DNA of 64,000 nucleotides from Ruminobacter sp. (GTDB lineage Bacteria > Pseudomonadota > Gammaproteobacteria > Enterobacterales > Succinivibrionaceae). The notes beneath the pieces are model-generated. The model was given only the letters and a program-made list of their open reading frames with translations, was not told where the DNA came from and ran no database searches. Shown here in pieces: positions 53,593-59,649 of the stretch. The translations under genes and the position numbers were made by a program. How positions within the stretch are numbered: the stretch's first letter is position 1; each line of letters begins with the position of its first letter. The stretch spans positions 27,797 to 91,796 of the forward strand of contig JAGAYS010000017.1 in the NCBI GenBank assembly GCA_017940385.1, given 5' to 3'.

Positions 53593-53728
53593 ATTACGTT
53601 TTGTTTTTCCCCATATCATGGCCGTTCTCCGCTTTTTCTGATTCTCATTGTAAGCCTTTCCTGACATTTACCCGCCCAATGTGTGCTATAATACCGGCTG
53701 TCTAACGAACGAAAGGAAGAGGGATTTC

Positions 53729-55117
53729 ATGATACGGGATAGGATTATAAATTTTCTGTCAACGCATTCAGATATTAATACTCCCCGCCCCCTTCAGCAG
53801 TCAGAGACTGAAAGCTATACGGACCGTGACAAACTTGCCGGCATCGTGGCTGCGGTAACAGGATGCGCAGCATGTCAGGAAATCACGGTAACCTCCGACG
53901 TAAACGGCAGACTGTATCTCGGTTTCGGCAGATCTGAAAAAACGGATCCCGGGACATGTTTCTTCAGAAGCGCCTTTAAGGTTCCGGTATCGGTCGACTC
54001 CTACACCCCGGCAATACTCATTGTCGCGGATCCTCAAAACCTGACCGTCACGGCGGAGTGCCATGCCGGCACCGCAAATGATAAACCCCGTAATCAGGTC
54101 ATGTTCGATAAGAAGGCTCTTGACGCTCTTCCGGCAGGCGGACAATACTGCCTGACACAGCATCCTGAACATGTCCGTCTGGACGAAATCCTGAAAAATG
54201 CGGACATAAGACTTATTCCGGAACATGACGTCTTCATTGACAGGGTAAGCCGCATCCGCGGAGCGATAAACACAACGGGCAGCCGCCTTAAAAAAGCCGT
54301 TACGGCCAGAAAGGCCGTATTTACTCTTAATGAGGAAACGACAGAGAATGAATCGTTCCTGTCCGAAACTCTTACCGGACTGGTATACGACAGACTCTCC
54401 GAACCTGACAGCGAATGCCATTTTTACGCATCATACGGGTCTCCGTCAGCTGCTGACGGCGGAGCGCAAAAAGCAGGCCTTTTCGTGTCATTCACTCCGG
54501 AAAAGCTCTTCAGCATAAAATCACGCTCCGTCAGCTGCGATGCCCTGGCAGGATCGGTTTCCGCCGAAGAATCCGACTCACTGCTTCATGACCGCAAGAA
54601 TCTCACGGAAAACAGAATTGTGGCTGACTATGTCTGCTCAAAGCTTTCAGGAATATGCACCGACGTGAGACAGTCAGAACAGAAGCTCCGGAAGCTTTCA
54701 TACATAACTCACCTGCTGGTCGAAATCAACGGCACGCACAGGGATACTCCCGATACCGGTGAAATGATTAAGCTTCTCCATCCGACGCCGGCCACTCTCG
54801 GATATCCGACGGAGGAGGCTCTTAAAATTCTTGATGAATGCGGAGCCCTCATCAGCGGGGATTACGCCGGAATCGGCGGAATCCGCCATCATGATGAGTC
54901 CACGGCCCTTGTCCTTCTCAGAAGCGTCACCGTCACCGGTGATTCCATAACGCTTTACGGCGGAGCCGGCATCATGGGAGAGTCGGATCCGGAATCCGAA
55001 TGGAAGGAAACAGGACTTAAAATGACGGCTGTTCTGCGCAGAATATCGCATGAAGGCACCGTCAGAATGCTGCTGGATAAAATCAACTGCAGCAAACAAT
55101 CAACAAGGTTACGATAA
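53729..55117 (+). CDS. menF: Isochorismate synthase
   Basis: 462 residues from ATG 53729, chosen because GGAAGAGGG lies 6-8 bases upstream; the frame is open for 16 more codons. It converts chorismate to isochorismate, the first committed step to menaquinone. The C-terminal chorismate-binding domain shows the general-base Lys in RLKKAVTARKAVFTL and the Glu in SFTPEKLF. ALAGS, the HPTPATLGYPTEEAL signature, DYAGIGGI, and the metal-binding Glu in GAGIMGESDPESEWKETGLK are also present. The SxPE and YAG elements are conservative variants. It is followed by two menD-like genes, which points to MenF rather than a siderophore EntC. Confidence 0.9.
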   Translation: MIRDRIINFLSTHSDINTPRPLQQSETESYTDRDKLAGIVAAVTGCAACQEITVTSDVNGRLYLGFGRSEKTDPGTCFFRSAFKVPVSVDSYTPAILIVADPQNLTVTAECHAGTANDKPRNQVMFDKKALDALPAGGQYCLTQHPEHVRLDEILKNADIRLIPEHDVFIDRVSRIRGAINTTGSRLKKAVTARKAVFTLNEETTENESFLSETLTGLVYDRLSEPDSECHFYASYGSPSAADGGAQKAGLFVSFTPEKLFSIKSRSVSCDALAGSVSAEESDSLLHDRKNLTENRIVADYVCSKLSGICTDVRQSEQKLRKLSYITHLLVEINGTHRDTPDTGEMIKLLHPTPATLGYPTEEALKILDECGALISGDYAGIGGIRHHDESTALVLLRSVTVTGDSITLYGGAGIMGESDPESEWKETGLKMTAVLRRISHEGTVRMLLDKINCSKQSTRLR

Positions 55118-55165: not shown

Positions 55166-57136
55166 ATGCCCGGCACGGAATACAGACACATGATTAAATC
55201 AATTATTGAATACGGTCATAAATCCATCTACAGAGACGCGGAACTGGTTTACGTACTGAACTGTCTGGGCGTGCGGGATGTTTTCTGTGACAACGGTCTG
55301 CTGGAATCATACATGGAACTGACGCTCCAGCACTTCAGCAGTCCGGTTCCGCATATGGGATATGACGAAAGAATCACCGGCTTTCAGGCCATGGGATGCC
55401 TCAAGGCATCGGAATCCCCCGTCGCCGTTATCGTGTCCACAGCCCACGGTCTGGTAAATCTGGCGCCGATGCTGATGGAAATTCAGGGACAGCGAACCCC
55501 GCTTATCGTTATCAGCTCCGATGAGGGACGCGACGTTCCAGAATCCTTTACCGGCAGTGTTTCCAGAACGGATCCGTATCTTGCAAACTTCTGCGAATAC
55601 GTGCAGATTAACTACGCCAACGAACATCTGACACCAACGGCCAGAACCCACAGAATAATAAATGCCTACAGACTTGCCGAGGCCAGACACAAGCCTCTTC
55701 ACGTGAGAATCTCACCTGAACTCGGCATGTTCAGCAGAATTACCCTCGACGAGTTCACTGATGACGTCAATTCATTCTTCAACGAGGAATTCATCAGCAG
55801 ACTCATGGATCTTCGAGAGGAAGTGTACTCCTGTTTTGCGGAACAGTTTTTCAGACTGCCGGACGGCGGTAAATCCGACGAAGCCCTGCTTACGGAAAGC
55901 AACAGAAATCTTAAGGACAACCTTAACTCCATGTCCCGCAACATGACGGACACGGATCCTAAACTCAATCTGCTTAGACAGATTACGGATTCAAGAACCC
56001 TGGTTTTTGCCGGGGCGCTGACCGCAACCGAGGCGGAACCGGTTGAAAAATATCTGGCCGGGACAGGATTTCCGGTATATGCGGATGTCCAGTCAAACTT
56101 AAGGGGCCGAAAGAATCTCAACCTTATTACGGATTTTGACAAATGGTACAGAGACCATCCGCCGGTGGCATATCTCAACGGACAGAAGTTTGCCGACACA
56201 AGGCCTGAGGACATAAAGGCCATGATTGGCTACAACAGTCTGCCTTTCGACTACATTCTTATCCTCGGAGGCAGATTCATCTCCAAAACCGTACCGGAAT
56301 TTCTGTCCGCGAAAAAAGAAAACATTGTTCAGGTATTCATGAACGATGACGTCACCACCCTTAACGCGTCAGGCTGCAGGGGCGTGGAATTGAAGGACAG
56401 CTACGAGGTTCTGCCTTATCTTCTTCCGGTATCGGACGGAGTCACGAGGAAGCTGCCGGTTTACGGTTCCGGGATGAGCACAGGCGATGTGGAATCAAAG
56501 GAGCTGAGTACGCTTAAACGAAGTACCATTGCCGATGAGGAAAGCTTCTACAGACTTCTTAACCTCATCCTTTCGCCAAAGCAGCGGGTCTTTCTCGGAA
56601 ACAGTCTCTCCGTCAGAATGGCAGAAAAGAGACTTCACACCGCGAACAGAATTCTCACAAACCGGGTTGTTTCAGGAATTGACGGTCTCATCGCAACTGC
56701 CGCCGGCATTGCCATGACCGGAGAAACCGTGGCCGTCATAGGCGATACTTCGGCTTTATATGACCTCGGATCCCTGGGACTTCTCAGAAACGTCGGCCTG
56801 AAGCTTATAATCCTTAACAACAACGGCGGAAGAATCTTTACGAGATTCCCTCTCCCAACCGAAAAACTGATGAAGGAATCCTTCATCAACCCGCACGGGC
56901 TGAACTTCTCGCATTTCTGCCGAGCCTTCGGCATCAGCTACGCATGTGTCACGAAATTCAGCGAGCTGAAGGACGCTTTTACCGGGAGCGGAGCGGGATC
57001 CTGTGTCATAGAGGTGGATCTTACCCCGAAAAAAACAGCCAGAAAGGCCACCGGAAAAAGCAGGAACGGTAACACGGAGAAAACCTTGGCCGACGACTAT
57101 TTCAGCAGATTCCACAGAGCGGACAGATCACGCTGA
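55166..57136 (+). CDS. menD: MenD-like ThDP protein A: intact PP domain, degenerate PYR domain
   Basis: 656 residues from ATG 55166 (ATG 55190, with GGAA upstream, is also possible). MenD adds 2-oxoglutarate to isochorismate to give SEPHCHC. The C-terminal half matches MenD closely: FLGNSLSVRMAEKRL, TNRVVSGIDGLIATAAG, and the ThDP/metal motif GDTSALYDLG...ILNNNGGRIF. The N-terminal PYR domain keeps only YDER with the catalytic Glu. The substrate motifs are gone: CDNGLLESYM stands for APGSRSTPL and SSDEGRDVPES for TADRPPELIDCGANQ. Inserts in the middle domain and a basic 45-residue tail (KKTARKATGKSRNGN) make it about 100 residues longer than E. coli MenD. It must pair with a partner supplying PYR; the next gene encodes just that. 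Confidence 0.85.
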   Translation: MPGTEYRHMIKSIIEYGHKSIYRDAELVYVLNCLGVRDVFCDNGLLESYMELTLQHFSSPVPHMGYDERITGFQAMGCLKASESPVAVIVSTAHGLVNLAPMLMEIQGQRTPLIVISSDEGRDVPESFTGSVSRTDPYLANFCEYVQINYANEHLTPTARTHRIINAYRLAEARHKPLHVRISPELGMFSRITLDEFTDDVNSFFNEEFISRLMDLREEVYSCFAEQFFRLPDGGKSDEALLTESNRNLKDNLNSMSRNMTDTDPKLNLLRQITDSRTLVFAGALTATEAEPVEKYLAGTGFPVYADVQSNLRGRKNLNLITDFDKWYRDHPPVAYLNGQKFADTRPEDIKAMIGYNSLPFDYILILGGRFISKTVPEFLSAKKENIVQVFMNDDVTTLNASGCRGVELKDSYEVLPYLLPVSDGVTRKLPVYGSGMSTGDVESKELSTLKRSTIADEESFYRLLNLILSPKQRVFLGNSLSVRMAEKRLHTANRILTNRVVSGIDGLIATAAGIAMTGETVAVIGDTSALYDLGSLGLLRNVGLKLIILNNNGGRIFTRFPLPTEKLMKESFINPHGLNFSHFCRAFGISYACVTKFSELKDAFTGSGAGSCVIEVDLTPKKTARKATGKSRNGNTEKTLADDYFSRFHRADRSR

Positions 57137-57221
57137 ACGGCGTAAGCTGATTATGAACGGTACGGACACATAAATCATTAAAAAAACGGAAGCAACCAGA
57201 AAGAACGCCGGAGCGGAACGG

Positions 57222-58520
57222 ATGAAAGAACAGGTTTACATTAAAAACACACAGACTTTATCAGCATACAGACTGCTGTACACCTTAAAGAAACTCGGAT
57301 GCAGTGAGATATGCTACGCACCGGGATCAAGAAGTGCGCCACTTGTCATGGCCATGTCCGCGATTACGGGGTTCCGCAAGCACGTTCACTACGATGAAAG
57401 AGGTCTTGGCTGGTATGCTCTCGGTATTGCCAGAGCAACCCGAAAACCGGTAATCGTGTTCACCACCTCAGGCAGTGCCGTAGCCAATCTGTATCCCTCC
57501 GTGCTTGCGGCGGAACTCTACAATCTGCCGCTGATAGTAATCACCGCCGACCGACCTGACGAACTTATTGACTGCGGAGCCAACCAGGCGACTCTTCAGG
57601 ACAGAATATTCGGCAGCGAAACGGAATTTCTGGAGCTGTCCGCGGATAATGACATCTGTCATTCGGCAGGTCACCAGCATCTGATATGCCTCGCCTTCAA
57701 CAGAGCCAGAACAAGACTGCGCCCGTTCCACATAAACATATCCTTCAGGGAACCTCTTTATGATACCGAGGAACGTTTTTCGGATGAAGACGAACTTAAG
57801 AAGATGCTTACCGCAGTCAGGAAGGATACTGAAAAGTACATTGAAACAATGGGACTCAACCGTGAACTTCCGGGAATAAGTCTTGCTGAAATAACCATGC
57901 CTACCCACCATGAAAAGAACGTAGAACCGCCGTTCTACGTAGTCTGCGGCAACAGTGAGCTTGATGAAAGATTTCTGGACTACCTGCCGGAAACCGAAGC
58001 ACCGAACTACCTGTACTTCACCTATGAATCGGTAATAAAGAACCAGATTTACGCAAGCATTGTCAGACCGTTCGGAGATGAAAGTCTGCGCAACATCATC
58101 ATTCAGGCGGAACATGACGCAAACTCAGGCATACTCGAAGGCATTCAGCGTCTTCAGAACACCAGAATGGCATGTCACAACGGTCTTACGGCAGTAGCTG
58201 CCGGAGCCGGTCTTAAGAGCAACGTCCTGCTTCTGGCGGATCTTCCGGAAATTCTAGCCGACCTGAATTCCCTGCCGCTCATAAAAAATTCAGGCACAAA
58301 AGTAATGGTCATCAATCAGCATTACTCCGGAAACAGACATCTGGCGAAATTTGTTCCTGCCGTGGACATTCGGGAGATTGCCGAAGGTTTTGGCCTGCCG
58401 TACCGCAGAATAAACAGCAAAAATGAGTTCGGAAAATTTGTGGAGGAATACTGCACGACAGGACAGAAATGGATACCAGAAATAATAGAAGTATCCGATT
58501 TTGCCGATGAAAAGGAATAA
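57222..58520 (+). CDS. menD: MenD-like protein B: intact PYR domain, degenerate PP domain
   Basis: 432 residues against about 556 for normal MenD. The N-terminal PYR domain is canonical: CYAPGSRSAPLVMAMS, HYDERGLGWYALG with the catalytic Glu, TSGSAVANLYPSVL, ITADRPDELIDCGANQA and HINISFREPLYD. After residue about 190 the central domain is much shortened. The C-terminal PP-like domain is decayed: HNGLTAVAAGAGL stands for GIDGLLSTAAGV, and ADLPEILADL...VINQHYSGN for GDLSALYDL...VNNNGG, so the Gly-Asp and Asn ligands of ThDP-Mg are missing. A GGAGCGGAACGG site precedes the ATG. It follows gene A by 85 bases on the same strand. Alone it could not hold ThDP. Confidence 0.87.
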   Translation: MKEQVYIKNTQTLSAYRLLYTLKKLGCSEICYAPGSRSAPLVMAMSAITGFRKHVHYDERGLGWYALGIARATRKPVIVFTTSGSAVANLYPSVLAAELYNLPLIVITADRPDELIDCGANQATLQDRIFGSETEFLELSADNDICHSAGHQHLICLAFNRARTRLRPFHINISFREPLYDTEERFSDEDELKKMLTAVRKDTEKYIETMGLNRELPGISLAEITMPTHHEKNVEPPFYVVCGNSELDERFLDYLPETEAPNYLYFTYESVIKNQIYASIVRPFGDESLRNIIIQAEHDANSGILEGIQRLQNTRMACHNGLTAVAAGAGLKSNVLLLADLPEILADLNSLPLIKNSGTKVMVINQHYSGNRHLAKFVPAVDIREIAEGFGLPYRRINSKNEFGKFVEEYCTTGQKWIPEIIEVSDFADEKE

Positions 58521-58896: not shown

Positions 58897-59649
58897 ATGC
58901 TACAGATAGTCTTTCTGCCGGGATTTCTCGGCTCTGCTCATGAATTTCTGACCTTCGCGGATAAAATACCTGTAGGAGCCCAGATCCTGTCACTTCCCGG
59001 CTCAGGATGCAGTGATGCGGAAGTTGACTTCTCCAGCATCAACGACTGGATGGAAGAACAGCTTATAGGACTCAAGGTAAAGGAGTGCATCCTTTACGGG
59101 TATTCCATGGGAGGCAGAATAGCCGCTCATTACGCCCTCACCGCCGAAAGACCCAAAATCGCGGTGAAGGGACTTATTCTGGAAAGTGCAGGTTTTGGTA
59201 TTGCCGACAAGCAGACAAGAAAGGAAAGATACAGGGCTGACTGTGCCTGGGCTGAAAAATTCGCCACTGAACCGATGAAGGACGTGGTGACGGAATGGTA
59301 TGACCAGCCGGTATTTGCCGAACTCACCGACGGTGAAAAAGAAAAGCTGATAGCCATGCGCTCCAGAAACATAGGCGTAAGGATGGCCAAAACCATGATG
59401 GGACTCAGTACCGGCAAAATGCCGTATCTGGGTGAAGCCATAAGGAAGACATCCCTGCCTCTTCTCTACCTGTACGGAGAGAAAGACGCAAAATACGGCG
59501 AACTGGCCTCCGGACTTAAAAAAGCCGGAAATCCTGCCGTGAGCATTGCCGGAATTTCTGAATGCGGTCATAACATCCACATGAAAAAACCTGAAGCAAT
59601 AATTATAGAGATTAATAAATATCTTAACAAAAATTTCGGAATCCAATAA
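58897..59649 (+). CDS. menH: SHCHC synthase MenH (alpha/beta hydrolase)
   Basis: 250 residues. MenH eliminates pyruvate from the MenD product (SEPHCHC) to give SHCHC. The alpha/beta-hydrolase features are VFLPGFLGSAHEF (oxyanion region), the nucleophile elbow GYSMGGRIAAHYA, and the acid and His in LYLYGEKDAKYGEL and ECGHNIHMKKPE. Length and the FLPGFLGS start are typical of MenH. It is downstream of menF and the menD-like pair on the same strand, so the menF-menD-menH steps are kept together; menB, menC, menE and menA are not in the window. Confidence 0.9.
   Translation: MLQIVFLPGFLGSAHEFLTFADKIPVGAQILSLPGSGCSDAEVDFSSINDWMEEQLIGLKVKECILYGYSMGGRIAAHYALTAERPKIAVKGLILESAGFGIADKQTRKERYRADCAWAEKFATEPMKDVVTEWYDQPVFAELTDGEKEKLIAMRSRNIGVRMAKTMMGLSTGKMPYLGEAIRKTSLPLLYLYGEKDAKYGELASGLKKAGNPAVSIAGISECGHNIHMKKPEAIIIEINKYLNKNFGIQ

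Follow-up and report, generated by a model that had tools for sequence, protein, structure and literature searches.

A probable heteromeric MenD encoded by two adjacent paralogues with complementary domain losses in Ruminobacter

Can the active site of MenD, the SEPHCHC (2-succinyl-5-enolpyruvyl-6-hydroxy-3-cyclohexene-1-carboxylate) synthase of menaquinone (vitamin K2) biosynthesis, be divided between two unlike genes? This question is raised by a locus of Ruminobacter sp. (Succinivibrionaceae), a genus of rumen bacteria, located in a stretch of 64,000 nucleotides (nt), hereafter the window (contig JAGAYS010000017.1, positions 27,797 to 91,796, assembly GCA_017940385.1). The genome, G000 in this text, is a 2.45 Mb draft in 70 contigs. 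Two MenD-like genes, A and B, lie side by side between window positions 55166 and 58520, and each displays one degenerate ("dead") catalytic domain. A sequence-only reading of the window had proposed that they form an obligate heteromer. Our comparisons with related genomes suggest that A and B are most probably two subunits of one obligate heteromeric MenD with one working site per pair.

Complementary losses in two adjacent genes

The features of the pair are listed below, with approximate domain borders in amino acids (aa).

55166..57136, + strand: protein A, MenD paralogue of 656 aa with a live PP and a dead PYR domain (TIGR00173, 121.1 bits)
55223..55735, + strand: degenerate PYR domain of A, about aa 20-190, without GSRS, TADRP and CGANQ; Glu68 of YDERITG retained in this genome
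55961..56485, + strand: TH3 middle domain of A, about aa 266-440, placed from alignments; Lys292 equivalent in 3/4 orthologues
56486..57025, + strand: intact PP domain of A, about aa 441-620, with GNSLSVR, NRVVSGIDG, GDTSALYD (Asp527), NNNGG (551-555) and GRIF
57222..58520, + strand: protein B, MenD paralogue of 432 aa with a live PYR and a dead PP domain, starting 85 nt after A (TIGR00173, 197.7 bits)
57255..57767, + strand: intact PYR domain of B, about aa 12-182, with GSRSAPL, YDERGLG (Glu59), TADRP (Arg111) and DCGANQ (Gln122)
57768..58151, + strand: shrunken TH3 remnant of B, about aa 183-310, placed from the alignment; identity 0.11-0.25 between the more distant orthologues
58152..58517, + strand: degenerate PP remnant of B, about aa 311-432, without Asp442 and NNNGG equivalents, some Gly, Ala, Asp and Glu retained

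Both reading frames were open over these coordinates and GGAG was present upstream of the ATG of B. A terminator scan gave no + strand terminator between A and B, and no direct repeats of at least 20 bases were found inside 55166-58520.

Residues are numbered after E. coli MenD and were mapped onto A and B by motif; most of their roles are ones that we take to hold here, in part by transfer from the B. subtilis and Listeria numbering (PMC2914249, PMC12312563). Across the four Ruminobacter genomes sampled (G000, G023, G024 and G025), B kept S32, R33, E55, R107 and Q118 in 20 of 20 cells. From A, R107 and Q118 were gone in all four orthologues, R33 in three (the fourth lying beside a gap) and S32 in two, and the whole GSRS motif was missing in 4/4 genomes. 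The reverse was observed for the eleven site residues of the PP domain (S391, R395, R413, G417, I418, G441, D442, N469, G471, I474 and F475), which were present in 44/44 cells of A and in 2/44 of B, the latter two in a doubtfully aligned part of G025. K292, found in A in three of the four genomes, is variable in the canonical MenDs of the family too. The motifs that the sequence-only reading had reported for B were recovered as described (GSRSAPL, YDERGLG, TADRP and DCGANQ retained, the Mg/diphosphate motif replaced by ADLPEIL...NQH, the middle domain shrunken). Its account of A stood for the retained GNS..R, NR..SGIDG, GDTSALYD and NNNGG and for the lost GSRS, TADRP and CGANQ, but it had overlooked A's own PYR Glu (YDERITG).

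The same picture was obtained with columns chosen blind to A and B. Among 46 MenD-like rows, eight were A or B, 28 were canonical MenDs used for the choice (27 from the family plus E. coli) and ten were excluded: D_G021 (L028), from which the Ser391/Arg395 equivalents are gone, and the paralogues, fusions and partial frames L040-L046, L048 and L049 (L042 being a MenD fragment interrupted by a contig end). No row came from family genomes that lack a MenD locus. Columns conserved at 90% or more numbered 54, with 29 in PYR, 4 in TH3 and 21 in PP. Over the four orthologues, conserved cells were kept as follows: PYR, 53/116 in A and 108/116 in B; TH3, 12/16 and 2/16; PP, 80/84 and 24/84. Combining B-PYR with the TH3 and PP domains of A yielded 50, 51, 50 and 49 of the 54 columns in G000, G024, G023 and G025, as compared to 48-54 in canonical MenDs (50 in that of E. 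coli), and the opposite pairing (A-PYR with the rest of B) yielded 19, 19, 19 and 22. Losses were domain-specific in each of the four genomes (Fisher p 2e-7 to 2e-6 per genome, for residues that are not truly independent), and the residue tables confirm the earlier claim of two adjacent MenD-like genes with complementary losses. The PP columns kept by all four B copies (G420, A425, G427, D448 and E534) are ones that we take to be structural.

Domain searches displayed the same asymmetry. TPP_enzyme_N (PF02776) and TPP_enzyme_C (PF02775) were over cut-off in A, with the middle domain at 22.5 bits (cut-off 30.1); in B only PF02776 was over cut-off and the middle-domain family was not among the matches. 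Against the E. coli MenD chain 2jlc (PMC2914249), phmmer gave 90 bits for the PP and 28 bits for the PYR domain of A, and 122 bits for the PYR and 4.5 bits for the PP domain of B. A profile of the 28 canonical MenDs matched A orthologues over nearly their full length (228-279 bits) and B orthologues in PYR (178-193 bits), with a second, weak match of 5-12 bits. In single hhalign comparisons, the N-terminus of A aligned with the canonical PYR domain (E 8e-23) and the C-terminus of B, at about aa 320-425, with the canonical PP domain (E 8e-9, prob 95.8). Judged by these alignments, the C-terminal part of B is a degenerate PP domain rather than unrelated sequence. Neither A nor B carries a complete PYR site (GSRS, Glu, Arg, Gln) and a complete PP site in one polypeptide. 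Assignment to the acetolactate synthase large subunit was rejected: with TIGR00118 (cut-off 538.35 bits) B scored 29.7 bits and A was unlisted, and the genome's own copy scored 847.1 bits.

Proposed pairing, occurrence and origin

In described MenD structures, each site is composed of the PYR domain of one subunit and the PP domain of the other (PMC2914249, PMC12312563). For B. subtilis MenD, Arg32 and Arg106 are given as coming from one subunit and Arg409, Arg428 and Lys299 from the other (PMC2914249). The earlier reading had started from this shared-site architecture, which agrees with the B. subtilis structure, and the intact halves found here match it. A and B would pair as canonical MenD chains do. 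On the B side, the live site would consist of the PYR domain with Ser and Arg of GSRS, the catalytic Glu, Arg of TADRP and Gln of CGANQ. On the A side, it would comprise Ser and Arg of GNSxxxR, Arg of NR, Ile of SGID, the Mg-binding Asp and Asn, Ile-Phe of GxIF and Lys. Such a site would bind thiamine diphosphate (ThDP) with Mg, decarboxylate 2-oxoglutarate and add the product to isochorismate. As either gene has one of its catalytic domains dead, only one site per pair is possible. Since A:A would be devoid of the isochorismate arginines and B:B of the ThDP-Mg ligands, the pair would be obligate, both homomeric forms being inactive as SEPHCHC synthase; neither protein probably works without the other. 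A2B2 is the probable assembly, with a presumed contact geometry. The A-PYR:B-PP site would be dead and retained in a structural or regulatory role. We tentatively suggest that, in such a one-site-per-dimer heteromer, it could have been reshaped for a structural or allosteric function and not left drifting.

A and B occurred side by side in all four genomes of the genus, with gaps of 85, 84, 33 and 145 nt. Orthologues from the three other genomes were 90, 47 and 38% identical to the window's A and 87, 42 and 35% identical to its B, so that the co-occurrence anticipated by the earlier reading extends down to 35-38% identity. The absence of a canonical menD elsewhere, on which that reading also depended, was equally borne out: TIGR00173 (menD, curated cut-off 244.2 bits) was over cut-off in 0/4 genomes of the genus, as compared to 27 of the 52 other family genomes (56 family genomes searched). 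Three TPP_enzyme_N genes were recorded in the window's genome, namely A, B and one further gene, which was rejected as a canonical menD because it encodes the acetolactate synthase mentioned above (847.1 bits with TIGR00118).

Beyond the genus, the pair was not encountered in the genomes sampled. The B profile at E 1e-60 gave two matches among 247 genomes of the order, both from Ruminobacter, and the A profile at E 1e-70 gave one among 369 genomes of the class, the window's own (the three other genus genomes were evidently outside that sample). TIGR00173 at E 1e-28 matched 39 of 398 sampled genomes of the phylum, 37 of them over cut-off; the two below it were G000, with a half-length match, and G966, with a full-span one. 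An A protein of 91% identity is encoded on contig CACWVT010000024.1 (RUG10948, uncultured Ruminobacter sp.). Since this locus (L035) shows no difference from G024 in the 9.8 kb compared, it does not represent a fifth genome.

Between G000 and G024, Nei-Gojobori ratios of nonsynonymous to synonymous substitution (dN/dS) were 0.143 for A and 0.169 for B. By domain, they amounted to 0.054 for the dead A-PYR (300 bootstraps, 0.017-0.112), 0.106 for the dead B-PP (0.054-0.175), 0.146 for the live B-PYR, 0.212 for the live A-PP and 0.298 for the TH3 remnant of B (0.151-0.533). Only the C-terminal tail of A (36 codons) had an interval touching 1 (0.326, 0.094-1.002). On these ratios, both genes, dead domains included, are under purifying selection between the two species. 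Between G000 and G023/G025, PYR identity was 0.62/0.47 for the live domain of B and 0.41/0.29 for the dead one of A; PP identity was 0.50/0.47 for the live domain of A and 0.31/0.23 for the dead one of B. The dead halves thus have drifted across the genus, yet they are held now.

In trees of 36 and 32 rows, the PP clade of A (99/95) was sister to the MenD of genome G055 (96/81), within the MenDs of the family, and the PYR clade of B (94/88) joined these relatives in a group of weak support (81/84). G055 possesses a single canonical menD between menF and menH. Grouping B with the MenD of G055 (D_G055) as one clade gave an approximately unbiased test value (p-AU) of 0.071; the clade tests included 21, 18 and 21 rows. 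The simplest origin of the pair would be that a single menD was duplicated in tandem in the ancestor of Ruminobacter and that the copies then underwent complementary loss. In the men cluster of G055 (L065), menD is intact, menB has an in-frame TAA, and menF, menC and an apparent menE occur as short or split frames; these breaks are either sequencing errors or decay.

Other MenD relatives of the family were also recorded. A second MenD-like protein without the PYR catalytic residues is encoded in G001 (L043, 2684-5812, 1042 aa) and in G008 (L045, 445-3516, 1023 aa), in both cases adjoining a second isochorismate-synthase-like gene, and G001 has an intact menD about 8 kb away; these could be another case of a MenD with a degenerate partner. 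The paralogues of G021 (L028, 577 aa) and G016 (L049, 557 aa) have lost the Ser391/Arg395 equivalents, and the same genomes also carry a MenD with all listed residues (L050 and L022). In G051 (L040, 3282-6869), a MenD-like part follows a polysaccharide pyruvyl transferase domain (PF04230, 98.5 bits; PF02776, 71.3 bits). A gene of G052 (L041, 4692-6986), judged by look only, is similar in build and is truncated by the contig end. A glycan-related MenD relative may exist in the family.

Alternative explanations and pathway context

Both chains fell below the cut-off of the MenD equivalog family, A matching it in three stretches (121.1 bits) and B in one (residues 15-199, 197.7 bits); an annotation pipeline relying on that cut-off would miss MenD in Ruminobacter. 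Several observations weigh against a heteromeric MenD, for which the evidence comes entirely from sequence. The PYR Glu of A (E55 equivalent) was kept in three of the four orthologues, that of this genome included, so that A:A would not be wholly without a catalytic PYR residue. The PYR domain of A and the PP domain of B were poorly placed in the trees, and A and B as one clade were neither rejected nor supported (p-AU 0.243 for PYR and 0.281 for PP, long branches). The dead A-PYR showed the lowest dN/dS of all domains, and the G000-G024 comparison breaks the live-over-dead order of identities (A-PYR 0.97 vs B-PYR 0.90; A-PP 0.87 vs B-PP 0.86). The Ruminobacter sample is small, with four drafts that are 92-97% complete, two of them close. 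The MenF-, MenH-, MenE- and MenC-like assignments are all below curated cut-offs. Finally, 7 of 37 menB-bearing family genomes had no TIGR00173 match stronger than about 1e-20, the level reached by the verified acetolactate synthase of G000. Consequently menB alone is no proof of a local MenD, and members of the family may also depend on intermediates supplied by others. The seven (G029-G032, G039, G043 and G045, genes not identified one by one) all belong to genus code g11, where cross-feeding on menaquinone intermediates is possible.

The alternative that survives best, although we consider it unlikely, is that A works alone as a homo-oligomer with a redesigned PYR pocket, B being a regulatory or stabilising pseudo-subunit, or that A:A is a plain 2-oxoglutarate decarboxylase. 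It would account for the eleven PP residues and the Glu kept by A, for the strong constraint on A-PYR between G000 and G024, and for residues of that domain that are invariant in the genus and rare in canonical MenDs (D136, P137, N141, P157 and R163, none of them in more than 2 of 28). Yet the Arg107 and Gln118 equivalents and GSRS are gone from A in every genome, and in G025 even the catalytic Glu is replaced by Ser. Moreover, B retains exactly the set that A is missing in 4/4 genomes, which a mere scaffold would not need.

The neighbourhood bears on the reaction catalysed. On the + strand of the window, a menF-like gene, A, B and a menH-like gene follow each other.

53681..55117, + strand: menF-like isochorismate synthase, 478 aa, ending 48 nt before A (TIGR00543, 172.6 bits, below the cut-off of 224.75; PF00425, 133.7 bits, over cut-off)
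58897..59649, + strand: menH-like gene, 250 aa (TIGR03695, 202 bits, just below the cut-off of 208.55)

This order was found in 3/4 genomes; in the fourth, G023, the pair adjoins menF, and menH lies on another contig. A MenH homologue was detected in 4/4 genomes, as were menA and menB, both over cut-off. A MenC-like gene adjoins menB in 4/4 (65-81 bits, cut-off 130.55) with its Lys/Asp/Glu set kept, and a MenE-like gene is likewise present in 4/4 (274-306 bits, cut-off 330). A and B are thus found in a menaquinone operon setting together with the rest of the classical pathway, its menC- and menE-like members being below cut-off. The MenF-like proteins kept the K190, E240, E284 and E416 equivalents in 4/4 genomes; these residues and the MenC-like set are presumably catalytic, and their retention indicates that the pathway does not look dead, for which reason a broken menaquinone pathway was rejected. 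The futalosine-route family PF02621 was found in 0/4 genomes of the genus and in 4/14 of the control rings. Between G000 and G024, the menB and menC-like genes (L061, 5556-7798, and L063, 5480-7722) showed synonymous differences of 0.07 and 0.03, and menF, A, B and menH 0.35-0.48, which suggests a recent exchange of the menBC locus.

That the pair is a heteromeric ThDP enzyme with a changed reaction, menaquinone being made from imported intermediates or not at all, seems quite improbable. Such a view is favoured by the scores of both chains below the MenD equivalog cut-off and by the seven menB-bearing genomes without clear MenD. It is opposed by the menF-like and menH-like neighbours, which stand for the steps before and after MenD, and by the live pairing, in which the residues that PMC2914249 names for the binding of isochorismate and 2-oxoglutarate are retained. 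A canonical menD hidden in an unsequenced gap, with the pair as an accessory, is very improbable: the incompleteness of the drafts would allow it, but the gene would have to be missed in 4/4 genomes, and in G055 and E. coli it is menD that stands at the location of the pair, beside menF and menH. From the low family scores and the much reduced sequence of B, one could imagine a pair of pseudogenes in decay, or a single gene split by an error of assembly, but this is hardly tenable and already contradicted by conservation, since frames are open in 4/4 genomes at 35-90% identity with dN/dS of 0.14-0.17. Nor are A and B fragments of a single gene, as both domains, PYR and PP, are present in each.

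Relation to known ThDP enzymes and significance

The proposed heteromer shares its PYR-TH3-PP order (in A) and its operon place with canonical MenD, of which structures from E. coli, B. subtilis, Listeria, S. aureus and M. tuberculosis are known, and the active-site residues become identical once B-PYR and A-PP are combined. The E1 component (alpha2beta2) of 2-oxo acid dehydrogenases is, like A and B, a ThDP enzyme of unlike subunits; its PYR and PP domains are split between alpha and beta, and its reaction differs from that of MenD. The E1 heterotetramer has two active sites (PMC2663715), unlike the one-site A:B pair proposed here.

Heteromeric ThDP decarboxylases encoded by two adjacent genes are already known: ComDE (sulfopyruvate decarboxylase) and RhiEF (phosphonopyruvate decarboxylase) hold the cofactor at the interface of unlike chains (PMC12141560). 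The sequence-only reading had invoked ComDE as a parallel, which stands for a two-chain heteromeric ThDP enzyme but not for the build. In these decarboxylases, PYR and PP are on separate chains with no dead copy, as far as PMC12141560 describes them, whereas A has both domains and the C-terminus of B is homologous to PP; both look like descendants of a full-length MenD.

In the literature consulted, the MenD structures described have one kind of chain, arranged as dimers of dimers (PMC12312563, PMC9835592), and two unlike genes are found here. Half-sites cofactor occupancy in asymmetric structures of M. tuberculosis MenD (PMC9835592) resembles the one-site A:B pair, but it arises there from conformational asymmetry within one kind of chain, and in A/B the asymmetry would be fixed in the sequence. 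Searches of the open-access literature, a weak negative in each case, gave, among the papers listed, no heteromeric or split MenD and no MenD of Succinivibrionaceae, nothing on MenD for Ruminobacter with menaquinone or quinone, and no MenD case among heteromeric ThDP enzymes and pseudoenzyme pairs.

If A and B work as proposed, they would provide a naturally occurring test of the requirement for two communicating sites in ThDP enzymes (half-of-the-sites reactivity, "proton wire"). A title cited by the paper on the E1 proton wire reportedly announces independent sites in a related enzyme. For pyruvate dehydrogenase E1, half-of-the-sites reactivity is described, and in the proton-wire model each cofactor serves the other site (PMC2663715). 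Whether a second working site is needed at all, a debated point, would become apparent from a dimer in which one site is dead. The pair would also be a clean example from bacteria of how complementary losses that follow a duplication make an obligate heteromer out of a homomer.

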